From NCBI RefSeq assembly GCF_014522265.1, contig NZ_CP017024.1, forward strand, positions 3,570,001 to 3,634,000: a DNA stretch of 64,000 bases. Reading direction: 5' to 3'. The stretch comes from Pseudomonas oryzihabitans (GTDB taxonomy: Bacteria; Pseudomonadota; Gammaproteobacteria; Pseudomonadales; Pseudomonadaceae). Positions 26,593 through 33,137 of the stretch are shown here, one piece after another; the stretch's first letter is position 1; every line of letters starts with the position of its first letter. Under the pieces are notes generated by a model, which was not told the origin of the DNA, searched no databases, and was given only the letters and a program-made list of their open reading frames with translations. The position numbers were made by a program, and so were the translations under genes.

Positions 26593-26709
26593 CCCGAGAG
26601 TTTAGTGTTATCGGTTATAAGCAAAGACCCTTTCAATATAGGTCGGTCTAACCTGAGTGGTTATCCTGTGCGGCCGCAAAATGAGCCGACAACGGCAATT
26701 GGGGCTGTA

Positions 26710-27494
26710 ATGGAAGTAGGGGCGTTGGGCTTCGTGATCGCGGGGCTGGTGGTTGGCTTCATCGTTGGCATGACGGGCGTGGGTGGTGGCTCGCTGATGA
26801 CCCCCATCCTGCTCTGGTTCGGGATCAACCCCGCGGCAGCGGTAGGCACCGATCTGCTCTATGCCGCCATCACCAAGGCGGGCGGCGTCTTCGTTCACCA
26901 GCGCAACCGCAACATCGACTGGACGGTGACCGGCTGGCTGGCCGCCGGCAGCGTACCCACCGCCGCCCTGACGCTACTCGCCCTGGCGCTGCTGCCCGGT
27001 GATCAGCACGCGACCAATGCCCTCATCAAGCATGCCCTGGGCATCGTGCTGCTTTTGACGGCCCTGGCCATTCTCTTCAAAAAGCAGATCTTCGCCTTTG
27101 CCAGCCGCCATGCCAGCGACAGATTTCACCTGAGTGCCAGGCGGCTCAACGCCCTGACGGTGCTTACCGGCGCAGTGCTGGGCTTCATGGTGACCCTGAC
27201 TTCCATCGGCGCTGGGGCCCTGGGCACGGTGGCGCTGTTCCTGCTCTATCCGCTGATGGCGACCCGGCGCCTGGTCGGTACCGAGATCGCCCATGCGGTC
27301 CCCTGACGCTGGTGGCGGGACTCGGTCACGCCGGGTTGGGCAATCTGGACTGGCATGTCCTGGGCTTTCTGCTGCTGGGGTCCTTGCCGGGGATTTTCCT
27401 GGGCAGCCATCTCTCCGGACGCGTACCGGATGGCGTGCTGCGGCCCTGTCTGGCGGTCATGCTGCTGGTCATAGGCGCCAAGCTGGTGGTCTGA
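26710..27494 (+). pseudogene. TauE/SafE (TSUP) family transporter, frameshifted in this sequence
   Basis: 261 aa once repaired, a normal length for sulfite/organosulfonate exporter-family proteins. The first half-repeat starts VIAGLVVGFIVGMTGVGGGS with the family GVGGGSLMTP motif; the second starts TGAVLGFMVTLTSIGAGALG. About eight membrane spans in all. The frame ends at TEIAHAVP with an in-frame TGA; one frame over it continues LTLVAGLGHAGLGNLDWHVL to the end GAKLVV. One missing C in the CCCC run 27300-27303 restores the gene. Substrate unknown. It is followed by the chemoreceptor gene 141 bases later. Confidence 0.85.
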
Positions 27495-27576
27495 ACGTCG
27501 GGGGGAAACTTAAGGTCGTTCATCGGACGACTACTGGCAATCCGCCAGGAGAAAACATCTCTAGGATAGACGGTGT

Positions 27577-27603
27577 TCAATTTGTTATCGCGATTGCCGA
27601 TAA
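27577..27603 (+). promoter_or_regulatory. FliA (sigma-28) type promoter of the five-PAS chemoreceptor
   Basis: TCAA at 27577-27580, exactly 15 bases, then GCCGATAA at 27596-27603. This matches the flagellar sigma-28 pattern (TAAA/TCAA-N15-GCCGATAA), including the full -10 octamer. The start codon of the receptor lies 33 bases downstream. An inverted repeat GTTATCG/CGATAAC (27584-27590, 27598-27604) overlaps the -10. Confidence 0.72.
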
Positions 27604-27635
27604 CCTGTTCGCCGAGTTCTCTCCTGGAGCTGCCC

Positions 27636-30110
27636 ATGTTTTCCGCCTCTGCCGAATCCGCTGCTGTCGACGATGCCTCTGCCTATCACGCCCTGCGCCA
27701 GGCGCTGGACCGCTCCCTGGCGGTGATCGAATTCGATCTGCAGGGCACGATCCTTCACGCCAACGACAACTTCCTGCAGACCTTCGGCTATCGCCTCGAC
27801 GAGATCAGCGGGCGACAGCACCGCCTGTTCTGCCCGCCCGGGGTGGCGGAGAGCGAGGACTATCAGGACTTCTGGGCGGCGTTGGCGCGCGGCGAGTTCC
27901 ACAGCGGTGTCTATCGCCGCAAGCACAAGGACGGCACTCTGAGGTGGATTCGCGCCACCTACAATCCGTTGCTGGATGCGCAGGGGCGCCCGCAGCGCAT
28001 CATCAAGTTCGCCACCTACATCACCGAGACGCGGCTGCAGGCGGTCGAGTACGAAGGCAAGATCGAAGCCATCCATCGCTCCCAGGCGGTGATCGAATTC
28101 GATCTGCAGGGCAACGTGCTCTGGGCCAATGACAACTTCCTCGGCATGACCGGCTATGCGCTGGACGAGTTGCGCGGGCGTCATCACAGCCTGATGTGCC
28201 CGGCCGAATACGCGCGTTCGGCGGAGTACGCCCTGCTGTGGAATCGCCTGGGGCAGGGTGTCTTCGATACCGGGGTCTACAAGCGCATCCGCCGCGATGG
28301 GCGACCGATCTGGATCCAGGCCACCTACAACCCCATCCTCGACAGCGACGGTCGACCCTACAAGGTGGTGAAGTTCGCCACCGATGTGACCGATGCGCAA
28401 CTTCAGGCCGCCGAATTCGCAGGCAAGATGGCCGCCATCGACCGTGCCCAGGCGGTGATCGAATTCGATCTGCACGGCAACATCCTGACGGCCAACGAGA
28501 ACTTCCTGTCGGCTCTGGGTTACAGCCTGGACGAGGTGCGTGGCAAGCATCACCGGATCTTCTGCGAACCCGAGCATGCCCGCTCGCCGGGCTATCGGCT
28601 GTTCTGGGAAAAGCTCGGCCGCGGCGACTTCGATGCCGGGCTGTACAAGAGACGCGCCAGCGACGGCCGCCAGGTGTGGATCCAGGCCACCTACAACCCC
28701 ATCCTCGATGCTGAGGGCAAGCCGTACAAGGTGGTCAAGTTCGCCAGCGACGTCACCGAGACTCAGCTGCGCAACAGCGATTACGAAGGCAAGGTGGCGG
28801 CCATCGACCGATCCCAGGCCATCGCCGAATTCTCCCTCGACGGCACGGTGCTCGCCGCCAACCGCAACTTCCTGCTGGCCCTGGGTTACCAGACCGATGA
28901 AGTGGTGGGCAAGCATCACCGCATCTTCTGTCCCGACGACTATGCCCGCTCGGCGGAGTACCGGCTGTTCTGGGATAAATTGGCGCGGGGCGAATTCGAC
29001 GCCGGGGTGTACAAGAGACGCAACAGCCGGGGCGAGGAGATCTGGATCCAGGCCACCTACAACCCGATCTTCGACGCCGACGGCAAGCCGTGCAAGGTGG
29101 TGAAGTTCGCCGTGGACATCACCGAAAGCCAGATTCGCAACAGCGATTATGCGGGCAAGGTGGCGGCCGTCGACCGCGGCCAGGCGGTGATCGAATTCGA
29201 TCTGACCGGCAAGATCCTCGAAGCCAACCGCAACTTCCTGGCGACCCTGGGCTATCGGCTGGAGGAGATCCGCGGCCAGCATCACCGCATCTTCTGCGAG
29301 GCGGAGCACGTCGCCTCCGGCGAGTACCGCGAGTTCTGGGCGCGGCTGGCCCAGGGCGAGGTGTTTGGCGGGCGCTTCATGCGGCTGAGCAAGTTCGGCC
29401 AGCGGATCTGGATCCAGGCCACCTACAACCCCATCTTCGACGCCGATGGGCAGGTGCACAAGGTGGTGAAGTTCGCCACCGACATCACCCGCCAGGTGGA
29501 GATGGAACAGCACGTGCGGCAGAAGATCGAGCAGATGAATCTTTCGCTGCACGCCCTGACCCGCTCCATCAACCAGATCGCCGAGACCACCGACGACGCC
29601 AACCGCATGGCCCGACGCACCCTGGAAGAAGCCGAGCGTGGTTCCCTGACCCTGACCCGCTCGCTGGACGCCATGGAGGCCATCGGTACCACGGCCGGAG
29701 GCATCCAGGACATCGTCCAGGTGATCAGCGACATCGCCAATCAGACCAACATGCTCGCCTTCAACGCCGCCATCGAGGCGGCTCGCGCCGGCGAGCACGG
29801 CCTGGGCTTCTCGGTCGTGGCCGATGAGGTCCGCAAGCTGGCCGAGAAGTCGTCCCAGGCGACCAAGGAGATCAACAAGTTGATCCTGGAGTCGGTCAAG
29901 AGCATCGCCCAGGGCAGTGAGATCTCGCGCAGCGTGGGCGAGGCCTTCGGCCTGATCGCCGAAGGGGTGGGCAAGACCCAGCAGTCCATCGAGGCCATCA
30001 ACGGCTCCACCGCGGCCCAGCTCGACGATGCGGCGCGGGTCAATCAGCTGATCCAGGAACTGGACGCGGCCACCACCCTTTCGCCGGTGGTTGGGGGAGG
30101 ACGGCCGTGA
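27636..30110 (+). CDS. Soluble methyl-accepting chemotaxis protein with five tandem PAS domains
   Basis: 824 aa, no membrane segment. Five PAS domains in exact tandem (about residues 25-145, 147-267, 269-389, 391-511, 513-633), each of 122 aa. Each repeats AVIEFDLxG, ANxNFLxxxGY, HHRIFC, FW and [20 protein letters not shown]. The signalling domain follows (~640-824), with [20 protein letters not shown] and [23 protein letters not shown] motifs resemble those of BdlA and Aer-type sensors. GGAG precedes the ATG. The GTG of the triple-CheW gene overlaps its TGA. Ligand unknown: redox, oxygen or an aromatic compound are possible. Confidence 0.93.
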
Positions 30111-31573
30111 CCCAGGGTGTGGTGCGGATCGGCGAACTGGAAGTCGCGCTGTCCGCCCAGGCCCTGGAACGCGTGGTGCCCTGGCCGGAGCGCCTGGCGC
30201 CTCATCCAAGTCCGGTGCCCTGGTTGCTGGGCCTCTTCGAGCTGGGCGGCCAGCCGCTGCCGCTGGTGGACGGCCATTGCCTGCTGGGGCTGCCGGCGGT
30301 CGAGCACGAGCGCCGGATCGCCGTGATCCGTCATGGGGGGGGACGCTTCGGCCTGGCCATCGATGGGGTGGTGGACATCCTCAAGCTGGCGGATGACGCC
30401 ATCGTGCAATTGCAGGGGACGCCCGGGCGCCTGCTGGGGCGCGTCCATCTGCGCCCGGAAAGCGGCCGGCTGGTCCATCTGCTGGATCTGGACACCCTGG
30501 CCGCCTTGCCGGGCTTCGAGGTCAGTGCCGACAGGCCGCCGCCGCTACAGCGGCAGGCCGCCATTGGCACGGAAGCGGAGCGGCTCTATCTGCTGTTCGA
30601 GTGCGACGGGCGGCGCCTGTGCCTGGATGCGGCGGTGGTTCAGGAGCTGGTGGATCGACCGCAGCTGACGCCCAGCGAATTCGCCAGCGACAGCTGTCGC
30701 TACCAGGTGCAGCTGAGAGGCCAGGCCTTGCCGGTGCTGGAGCTGTCCGAGCTGCTGGGGCTGGCCACGTCCGCCCAGGCTCACCATGAGCAGCTGCTGG
30801 TGCTGGCGGCGGGCGACCGGGGTCAGTATCGGGTCGCCTTCGGCTTCCAGCGGCTGCTCGGCATGTGGCGGCGGGATCCGGCGCAGTGCGCGCCGCTGCT
30901 TGGCTTCGGGCTGGAGCAGCCCGGGCTGTTGCGCGGGGTGTTCAGCGCCGCGGAGGGCGAGGCGGCCATCGTGATCGATCACCTGGCCCTGGGGTGCCAG
31001 GAGGCGGCGGTGGCCTATGCGCGGATCTATCGCACCGATCGCGACCTGCTGCGCGAAGAGCGGCGTCAGGTCCGCCGTCAGCCGTGCCTGACCTTTCTCG
31101 CCGAATTGCTGTTCGCCGTCCCGCTGGAGCAGGTGGCGGAGGTCTTGCCGCTGCCGGCGCATTACCTACGCCTCGGCCAGCGGGATCCGCGGTTGCTGGG
31201 ATTGATGGAGGTCCGCGGCCAGCAGATCACCCTGGTCTGCCTGCGGACCCTGGCCGGTGCGACAGCGGTGGAGTCCGGTCCCGGCGATCAGGTGATCGTG
31301 GTGGAAGGGCAAAGCCAGCGCCTGGGTTTCGTGGTGCAGCGGGTCGAGGCCATCGAGGCCTTTACCGAGTTGCGCGCCGATGCCCTGGCGCGCAGCTGGC
31401 AGTTGCCAGGGGAGGGCGGGGCAGTACCGGCGCAGCGGGCGCAGAGCTGGGTGGGCGTAGGATCCGCGGGCAACAGTCGCCAGGCGACCCTGATCGATCT
31501 CGGGGCGCTGGTGAAACGTCTGGAAGGTCAGGCCCGGCAGACCCTTCCGGAGCGCGTGGCTGCGACCGTTTGA
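30107..31573 (+). CDS. Triple-CheW-domain scaffold protein
   Basis: 488 aa made of three CheW-like modules: about residues 3-140 ([40 protein letters not shown]), 160-300 ([20 protein letters not shown]) and 325-478 ([40 protein letters not shown], ending [17 protein letters not shown]). CheW bridges receptors to the kinase CheA; three copies on one chain suggest array crosslinking. No histidine-kinase or receiver motif is present. It starts at GTG 30107 with TGA of the receptor overlapped (GTGA) and GGGGGAGG upstream, so receptor and scaffold are made in fixed ratio. Confidence 0.9.
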
Positions 31574-31823
31574 CGATACCGCTCGTCGCTTCGTCGAACG
31601 GTCGGGTAACGGATTACCCGTGGCTTTGTCGGCCACCGCAGGCGTCCCTCATCAAAGCGGTACCGGCAGGCTAGAGCGAGTGGTGTTTGCCGGGAGTCGC
31701 CAGACGGGGCGCGCCACCCGCGCCTCCTCTGCCGGAACCGGGTGCAGGCGTTCATCAGCGAGTTGTCAAGAAATTCCGCGGCGCGTCGAACCAGAGGAAG
31801 ACACAACTTTCCTGGGTGATCCC
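31574..31823 (+). other. Spacer before the second chemoreceptor
   Basis: 250 bases with no convincing gene. A weak sigma-28-like arrangement (TCAA at about 31766 and GTCGAACC 15 bases on) is too poor to call. The GAGG-like ribosome-binding site of the next gene lies near 31794. Confidence 0.35.
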
Positions 31824-33137
31824 ATGTTCAACTCCGCACTCAAACGCCGCATCGCCGATCTCGAAGCCGAACTGTCCGAACACCGCCAGGTCAGCGCGGC
31901 CTTCCATCAGGATTCGCTGCATCTGCTGCTGGACGCCCAGGGCCGGATCGAGGATTTCAACGAGAACTTCGCGCTCTGCCTGGGCTACGCGCCTGGCAGC
32001 CTGACCGGATGGAAACTCGACGACCTCATTCCCGACTACGTCAAATGCATGGACTGCTATCGGGATCTGAAGCGAAGCTTCAGCGAAGGTCACCAAGCCA
32101 GTGGCATCTATCGGCTGCTGCGCGGCACGGGCGGCGTTGCCTGGCTCTATGCGATCTGGACGCCGGTGCGTGACAGCCAGGGCCAGGTCAAGCAGATCCG
32201 CTGCTATGCCTACGACCGGACCGAGCAGGTGGAAGTCTCCACCGAACACTCGGGCATCATCAATGCATTGCTGCGCTCCACCGCGGTGATCGAATTCGAT
32301 CTGTCCGGCGAGGTGCTCACCGCCAACGAGCGCTTCCTGCAGGGCATGGGCTATTCGCTGGCGCAGATCGTCGGCAAGCACCATCGGATGTTCTGCAGCC
32401 GTGAAGAGGCCGAATCGGCCGACTATCGCGCCTTCTGGGAGCGGCTCAACCGGGGTGACTACGTGGCCAGTCGCTTCAAGCGCATCGACAGCCATGGCCG
32501 CACGGTCTGGCTGGAAGCCTCCTACAACCCGGTGCTCAACACCCGCGGCGAGCTGTACAAGGTCATCAAGTTCGCCACCGTCATCACCGAACAGGTGGAG
32601 CAGGAGCTGGCGGTGGCCGAAGCCGCGCGGGTCGCCTTCGACATTTCCCAGACCACCGACGAAAGCGCCCGTCAGGGTGCGGCGGTGGTGCAGGACACGG
32701 TGGCGGTGATGACCCGCATCGCCGACGAGATCCAGGTCGCTGCCAACGGCATCGAGGACCTCGGCAAGCAGTCGCTGGTGATCAGCGCCATCGTCAAGAC
32801 CATCAGCGGCATCGCCGAGCAGACCAATCTGCTGGCGCTCAACGCCGCCATCGAAGCCGCCCGAGCAGGCGAACAGGGCCGGGGTTTCGCCGTGGTGGCG
32901 GACGAGGTCCGGCAACTGGCCGGGCGCACCAGCAAGGCCACCGAAGAGATCGTCGGGGTGGTGCAGCAGAATCAGCAACTGGCGCAGACTGCGGTCAGCA
33001 ACATGGCGGCCAGCCGCCAGCAGGCGGAGCAGGGGCTGCACCTGGCGAGCAACGCCGGGGTGCGCATCACCGAAATCCAGGAGGGCGCCCGCCAGGTGGT
33101 GGGCGCGGTCAGCCAGTTCGCCCGGCGGCTGAGTTAG
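31824..33137 (+). CDS. PAS-PAS methyl-accepting chemotaxis protein (BdlA-like)
   Basis: 437 aa, soluble. An N-terminal coiled start [20 protein letters not shown] leads into PAS 1 (about 20-140; [20 protein letters not shown]) and PAS 2 (about 145-265; [40 protein letters not shown]), then a receptor signalling domain (about 270-437) with [20 protein letters not shown] and [20 protein letters not shown]. This is the domain plan and size of BdlA, the biofilm-dispersion sensor of P. aeruginosa (417 aa). PAS 2 closely resembles the five repeats of the upstream receptor. The 3' end overlaps the convergent phosphatase gene by four bases. Confidence 0.9.

Follow-up and report, generated by a model that had tools for sequence, protein, structure and literature searches.

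A soluble multi-PAS receptor and a triple-CheW protein form a recurrent gene pair without a CheA of its own and with a shared change at the receptor tip

What can a soluble chemoreceptor and a protein of three linked CheW domains be doing together at a locus that has no CheA kinase? This question is raised by a stretch of 64,000 nucleotides (the window; contig NZ_CP017024.1, positions 3,570,001 to 3,634,000) from a 5.05-Mb single-contig genome (G000), the nearest named matches of which are Pseudomonas oryzihabitans, P. rhizoryzae and related strains. The window encodes a receptor with several PAS domains and one signalling domain, a triple-CheW protein (TCheW) whose gene overlaps that of the receptor, and, after a spacer, a second soluble receptor resembling BdlA (Table 1). 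An initial annotation had proposed that the three proteins make up one cytoplasmic array that plugs into the main flagellar kinase, and had pointed to biofilm dispersal. Two of its descriptive statements were readily confirmed. No membrane span was found in the three proteins (best 19-residue hydropathy 0.90 for the receptor, 1.39 for TCheW and 1.18 for the BdlA-like protein). No CheA, CheY or CheB was seen among the neighbouring open reading frames (ORFs) of the window or of its relatives, and the nearest detected CheA gene ends ~54 kb upstream.

We observed that the conserved unit is the pair of receptor and TCheW, and not the trio. Relatives were searched in 57 genomes (13 of the genus, G000 included, 23 from other genera of the family and 21 from other families of the order). 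Full-length TCheW was present in 12 of the 13 genus genomes (G000 included), and ten of the 13 (the oryzihabitans clade) had all three genes in order, flanked by a TauE gene on the upstream side and by phosphatase and GAF genes on the downstream side. G004 and G012 carried the receptor and TCheW only, with no BdlA-like neighbour (G012 does have a cut receptor ORF ~4.6 kb upstream of the pair), and G001 had neither gene of the pair. Among the other genera of the family the pair was seen in 1/23 genomes (G024), and no full-length TCheW was matched in the 21 genomes from other families. The junction of receptor stop and TCheW start read GTGA in all ten clade genomes, as had been described for the window, ATGA in G004 and G012, and TAATG in G024. 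Identity within the clade was 90-97% for the receptor, 91-97% for the BdlA-like protein and 73-92% for TCheW, which diverges fastest.

The initial annotation had suggested searching for the three-gene set across genomes; when this was done, it was the pair that recurred. An alignment of TCheW, searched against 369 genomes of the class, returned five further carriers (G107, G226, G245, G327 and G350). The receptor signalling domain, searched against the same 369 genomes, gave these same five at the top after self, with 155-168 bits against 117 for the next match. With an enlarged alignment, 398 genomes of the phylum added G753, G693 and G486. The best three to four candidates per genome were scored in the 369- and 398-genome searches, and the TCheW counts are lower bounds. 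A protein search of plasmids added Ruegeria sp. TM1040, Caballeronia sp. M1242, Novosphingobium sp. ES2-1, N. aromaticivorans and Paraburkholderia sp. PREW-6R, and only short matches to plasmids came from a megablast of the region. Partial matches in Azospirillum (two records) and Sphaerotilus were left out of the pair-type counts. G444 (the seventh match of the 398-genome search) and Eleftheria were dropped from the TCheW set as they hold F9-type clusters.

Pair-type loci thus came to at least 26 records from Alpha-, Beta- and Gammaproteobacteria. The receptor stood directly before TCheW in 20/26. In four records (G107, G245, G693 and Ruegeria) CheR and CheD genes lay between the two, and in one (G350) receptor and CheR end one contig and CheD and TCheW begin another. 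These CheR and CheD genes were named by eye in G107, G245 and G350 and by similarity to those in G693; only Ruegeria's were annotated. In the remaining record, Novosphingobium sp. ES2-1 (L191, 5441-7494), TCheW is preceded by a 175-residue open receptor piece only, perhaps a decaying pair. Pfam found three CheW stretches in 8/8 further TCheWs scanned, and two to five PAS stretches with one MCPsignal stretch in 10/10 other partner receptors scanned. The partner receptors were not membrane-like (best 19-residue hydropathy at most 1.55). Outside the clade, no carrier showed a BdlA-like gene in the ~5 kb examined to either side of the pair. With that gene placed beside the pair in ten of the 13 genus genomes and not beyond the clade, the trio was rejected as a unit. 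Break-up of the set in most relatives, which the initial annotation had named as telling against its proposal, was found for the trio and not for the pair.

The surprising part of the finding is a change at the receptor tip that the partners have in common. The window receptor aligns to Tsr gaplessly over 185 residues; at Tsr positions 380 and 394 it carries F and L, respectively, and E402 and R404 are conserved in it. Among the 54 receptors of the same genome, 53 carry R (48), K (4) or H (1) at position 394 with L at 380, and the window receptor alone differs (52 were read by the tip pattern and two, of Wsp and PilJ type, separately, both with R). When we examined the 26 TCheW partners, position 394 was L in 23 and V in the other three, within the block GEHG[LV]GFSVVA. 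The letters FSVV alone are not distinctive, as the Wsp-type tip carries them too. Among the 30 loci kept from the signalling-domain search, the tip had L in six (G000 included) and R or K in 24. R394 of Tsr is stated to touch P3 and P4 of CheA (PMC6746300) and E18 of CheW (PMC6954272). Since the R394 equivalent is lost in every TCheW partner seen, the change fits receptors that no longer dock on CheA in the usual way, and a tip that keeps the E402 and R404 equivalents and lacks the R394-type contact would be a poor fit for a standard CheA/CheW unit.

Is TCheW, then, a plausible adaptor for such tips? Its AlphaFold model (18 sequences) had a mean pLDDT of 79.4 and a pTM of 0.62, at which the relative placement of the domains is unreliable. 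The six best Foldseek matches of this model were CheW or core-unit chains of CheW size (TMt 0.70-0.80), and NCBIfam had no family for the protein. We followed the pair of residues E38 and R62 of CheW (E. coli numbering). Both are kept in the second and third domains (D2 and D3) of the window protein, and the first domain (D1) has R and G. Across 20 TCheWs, R62, a residue named in PMC5907407, was kept in D1 of 16, D2 of 15 and D3 of 19. The D1 losses were in the four clade TCheWs sampled, and in all ten clade sequences the position is occupied by G, S or D; both residues of D1 (window 30107-30500) are retained by 15 of the 16 TCheWs sampled outside the clade. As different domains lose R62 in different lineages, it is different domains that drift by lineage. 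A compensating change at the E18 position was also considered and rejected as uninformative: no acid was read there in the TCheW domains, and the F6 CheW of the same genome equally reads Q (by eye, in E. coli numbering).

That several sequences have lost the E38/R62 pair in one domain, and the receptor the residue that contacts CheA, would suit a TCheW that acts as a buffer or insulator, binding the off-type receptor or competing for CheA/CheW sites and thereby damping signalling. We consider this clearly unlikely, given the near-constant R62 of D3, the intact pairs in D2 and D3 of the window protein, and the CheR and CheD genes of several operons, which suggest active adaptation. In a tree of single domains, the first CheW domains of eight TCheWs formed one clade (96/92) and the second domains grouped weakly (79/93), which suggests one triplication for the TCheW family. 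A triplication in common with F9 CheW3 was considered as well; the three domains of F9 CheW3 did not group with the corresponding TCheW domains in that tree, with weak support.

CheW architectures have reportedly been surveyed by Vass et al. A protein of three CheW domains is among the known architectures listed in PMC10653840. In the F9 system of Vibrio cholerae, a concatenated triple CheW (CheW3) and the double-signalling receptor DosM belong to cytoplasmic arrays (PMC7534058), and partial F9 sets (dosM, cheW3, cheBR) without CheA are described in a few species, Nitratiruptor included, for which another CheA is proposed (PMC9321776). The statement of the initial annotation that the exact set has no name is therefore fair for the set itself, and triple CheW and kinase-less sets were already in print for F9. 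The receptor/TCheW pair was not found described in the literature searched, which covered few subscription papers.

The likeness to F9 lies in a concatenated triple CheW beside a soluble receptor and in the existence of partial sets without CheA. The TCheWs of the CheR-CheD operons are, moreover, the closest to F9 CheW3 in an unrooted tree. One could thus suppose that the pair is a kinase-less remnant of F9/DosM that builds a cytoplasmic double-layer array of its own. Yet no double-signalling receptor was found: the window receptor and 10/10 others scanned have one MCPsignal stretch each. The receptors here have a single signalling domain, several PAS domains and the tip GEHG[LV]GFSVV, whereas the sequence in the DosM-type tips seen is GKGFAVV or GKGFVVV. 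In the same tree, 20 TCheWs and five F9-type CheW3 proteins were split at 100/100, and identity between the two groups was 22-25% in long alignments. F9-type clusters were met in Eleftheria (annotated, with a DosM-type protein that has two tips), G444, G001 (L080), G012 (L195) and G004 (L196), the triple-CheW genes of the last three having CheA nearby; in G004 and G012, which carry the pair too, the call was made from CheW3 and the nearby CheA alone. Such coexistence in two genomes also speaks against a remnant, which we regard as very unlikely. Membership in F9 was rejected on the missing DosM and the tree split; the window system is not F9, and may be a cousin of it.

We also evaluated the place of the BdlA-like protein through its length class. 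Two models were used, one from 37 receptors of the same genome with a long C-terminal arm (40H-type) and one from 22 Tsr-like domains of other genomes (36H-type). The assignment to class 36H or 40H rests on model scores and the Tsr alignment. The receptor scored 153.7 bits on the 36H-type model, with no gaps, against 111.6 on the 40H-type, and the BdlA-like protein scored 165.3 on the 40H-type against 92.5 on the 36H-type and has a canonical tip. The genome holds four short 40H-type receptors that score alike, namely the BdlA-like one and, at other loci, L092, L094 and L096. Two further receptor genes (G000:C1:3528163 and G000:C1:103465) contain an in-frame stop within the region that matches the MCP model. 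According to PMC5907407, 36H and 40H receptors do not assemble with each other, so the difference in class speaks against one mixed array of both proteins.

The resemblance to BdlA (PA1423) is one of architecture, soluble PAS-PAS-MCP, and it concerns the downstream gene; the core receptor, unlike BdlA, has more PAS domains, another tip and another register. The spacer before the BdlA-like gene holds the blocks CTAGAGC and TCAAGAAA...GGCGCGTCGAACCA, kept in all ten clade genomes. They suggest separate transcription and are perhaps the gene's own promoter, TCAAGAAA...GGCGCGTCGAACCA matching the FliA pattern weakly. Directly after the TCheW stop there is a weak hairpin (RNAalifold -5.7 kcal/mol), imperfect in the window. 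That all three genes serve one functional array for biofilm dispersal could be argued from their adjacency in 10/10 clade genomes and from the relatedness of the two soluble PAS receptors. In view of the differing length class, the canonical tip, the conserved upstream blocks of the BdlA-like gene and its absence from the vicinity of the pair outside the clade, we give this proposal very little credence. The BdlA-like gene probably does not belong to the core module, and the suggested link to biofilm dispersal was not upheld.

Which kinase could the pair use? The genome encodes four CheA-type kinases, of F6, F7, ChpA and Wsp types. These class names were assigned from gene order. The F6 cluster adjoins a gene read by eye as fliA. 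Twelve carriers were tested for CheA and flagellin genes. Five of them (G226, G327, G753, G486 and G107) had one detected CheA gene, which in the first four is not ChpA-like in length, and flagellin was encoded in all 12 (G000 included). G024 has the pair together with an F6 CheA (~90% identical to that of G000 over the catalytic half) and a ChpA, with no F7 detected. G001 has an F7 CheA and lacks the pair. On the simplest reading, the pair feeds into the flagellar CheA of its host, whatever its type; in G000 this would be F6 or F7.

Three receptors of the F7 cluster of this genome are 36H-type, as is the window receptor by its scores. Together with the stated failure of different length classes to co-assemble, this would favour the second, F7 (Che2-type) CheA ~54 kb upstream as the partner in G000, instead of the flagellar F6 kinase. 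We find this unlikely, as G024 keeps the pair without a detected F7 and G001 the reverse, as a FliA-type promoter precedes the receptor gene, and as the shortened signalling domain may escape the length rule.

That promoter had been noted in the initial annotation and was confirmed. The site matches the FliA consensus exactly; in the 250 nucleotides preceding the receptor gene, 0/200 shuffles gave an equally good site, and its -10 element GCCGATA is invariant in ten aligned clade genomes (G000 included), with TCAA exact in 8/10. At up to two mismatches, the pattern had two matches in the window against 2.0 expected. A FliA-like site preceded the receptor in 5/15 other carriers scanned (shuffles as good, of 200: G327 0, Caballeronia 0, G226 4, G004 7 and G753 11). 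Position 27577, from which the module had been drawn, is the start of the promoter, and the receptor gene itself begins at 27636. A longer receptor frame from GTG-27573 is unlikely, as its start would precede the promoter.

Our favoured explanation, which we consider moderately probable on these comparisons, is that TCheW would be a dedicated adaptor that links a cytoplasmic receptor with an unusual tip to the cell's own flagellar CheA, the pair being a satellite input module without a kinase. The comparisons establish the gene structure, the linkage of the pair, a single TCheW family, the common tip change, the length class and the CheA and flagellin content; for binding, ring position, stimulus and output we infer the following. 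The soluble multi-PAS receptor would sense an internal cue. Its PAS repeats match the structures of Aer, 3ewk (MmoS), DosP and 2gj3 (NifL) by sequence, and the NCBIfam models of NifL and DosP below cut-offs; the PAS domains of BdlA are predicted binders of flavin adenine dinucleotide (FAD) (PMC8694187). A flavin-based redox or oxygen cue, sensed through FAD-type PAS domains, is the likeliest guess. The linked CheW domains of TCheW may then bind both the off-type tips and the P5/CheW baseplate ring of the resident flagellar CheA, where they would probably be neighbours in CheW-rich or CheW-only rings, and the receptor would thereby feed the main flagellar pathway. Of the earlier idea of an array plugging into the main flagellar kinase, use of the resident CheA is thus retained for the pair, in keeping with the single CheA gene of several carriers and the flagellin of all those tested, and the trio is not.

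Some points weigh against this explanation. With four CheA types in the genome and a register closer to the F7-cluster than to the F6 receptors, the partner kinase is not fixed, and the single detected CheA of G107 (a draft of 180 contigs) is ChpA-type. The oryzihabitans clade lacks the E38/R62 pair in D1, five other sequences lack R62 in D2, and the domain tree divides the third CheW domains of the family between two groups. The other 10/15 carriers scanned had no convincing FliA-like site before the receptor (at least 23/200 shuffles as good).

Among known adaptors, CheV (CheW fused to a receiver domain) is likewise described as an extra adaptor serving a subset of receptors (PMC4742279, PMC12691637), whereas TCheW has three CheW domains and no receiver (only CheW was found), and its gene is paired with one receptor type. 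The CheW-CheRlike protein of the spirochaete F2 system (CheWS) is a case of a modified CheW that alters ring composition (PMC7666581, PMC10653840); TCheW differs in having no CheR-like fusion and in belonging to another phylum, and CheR, where present, is a separate gene. A bolder version of our explanation, which we put forward tentatively as a possibility short of likely, is that the pair would be a separate and widespread kinase-less family whose receptor and adaptor co-diverged, the linked CheWs allowing tips that lack the CheA-contacting arginine to enter flagellar arrays of every length class and host kinase, with two TCheW copies making up one six-member CheW-only ring.

The surroundings of the locus in the window are a TauE-type transporter gene upstream and, downstream on the opposite strand, genes for a histidine phosphatase and a GAF protein. 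The TauE/SafE-type gene (26605-27500) has its frame broken near 27300, leaving an ORF of 233 residues, and it is intact as one ORF of 261-329 residues in the other nine clade genomes; the break is either a true mutation or a sequencing error.

Table 1. Positions of the receptor, TCheW and BdlA-like genes and associated elements within the window
Feature	Position	Strand	Evidence
FliA (sigma-28)-type promoter, TCAA-N15-GCCGATAA	27577..27603	+	exact consensus match
Soluble receptor (PAS5-MCP), 824 amino acids	ATG 27636 to stop 30110	+	Pfam: five PAS_3 stretches and one MCPsignal stretch
Receptor signalling domain, Tsr/Aer-like (36H-type) register, shortened at membrane-distal end	29499..30107	+	alignment to Tsr, model scores
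Leu723 codon, position of Tsr R394 in receptor tip	29802..29804	+	alignment to Tsr
Triple-CheW adaptor (TCheW, also CheW3), 488 amino acids; start overlaps receptor stop by GTGA	30107..31573	+	three Pfam CheW stretches
Pfam CheW stretches of TCheW	30119-30502, 30587-30991, 31097-31387	+	
Spacer between TCheW and BdlA-like gene, ~250 nucleotides	31571..31823	+	conserved blocks in alignment
BdlA-like soluble PAS-PAS-MCP protein, 437 amino acids	ATG 31824 to 33137	+	Pfam: two PAS and MCPsignal

The pair offers a natural and portable case in which a receptor and an adaptor have apparently changed together at the best-studied signalling interface of bacteria. It makes two open questions testable, namely which receptors may join which array, and what role CheW-only rings have. 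By its example, some of the soluble receptors with several PAS domains that are annotated alone may likewise depend on a private adaptor.

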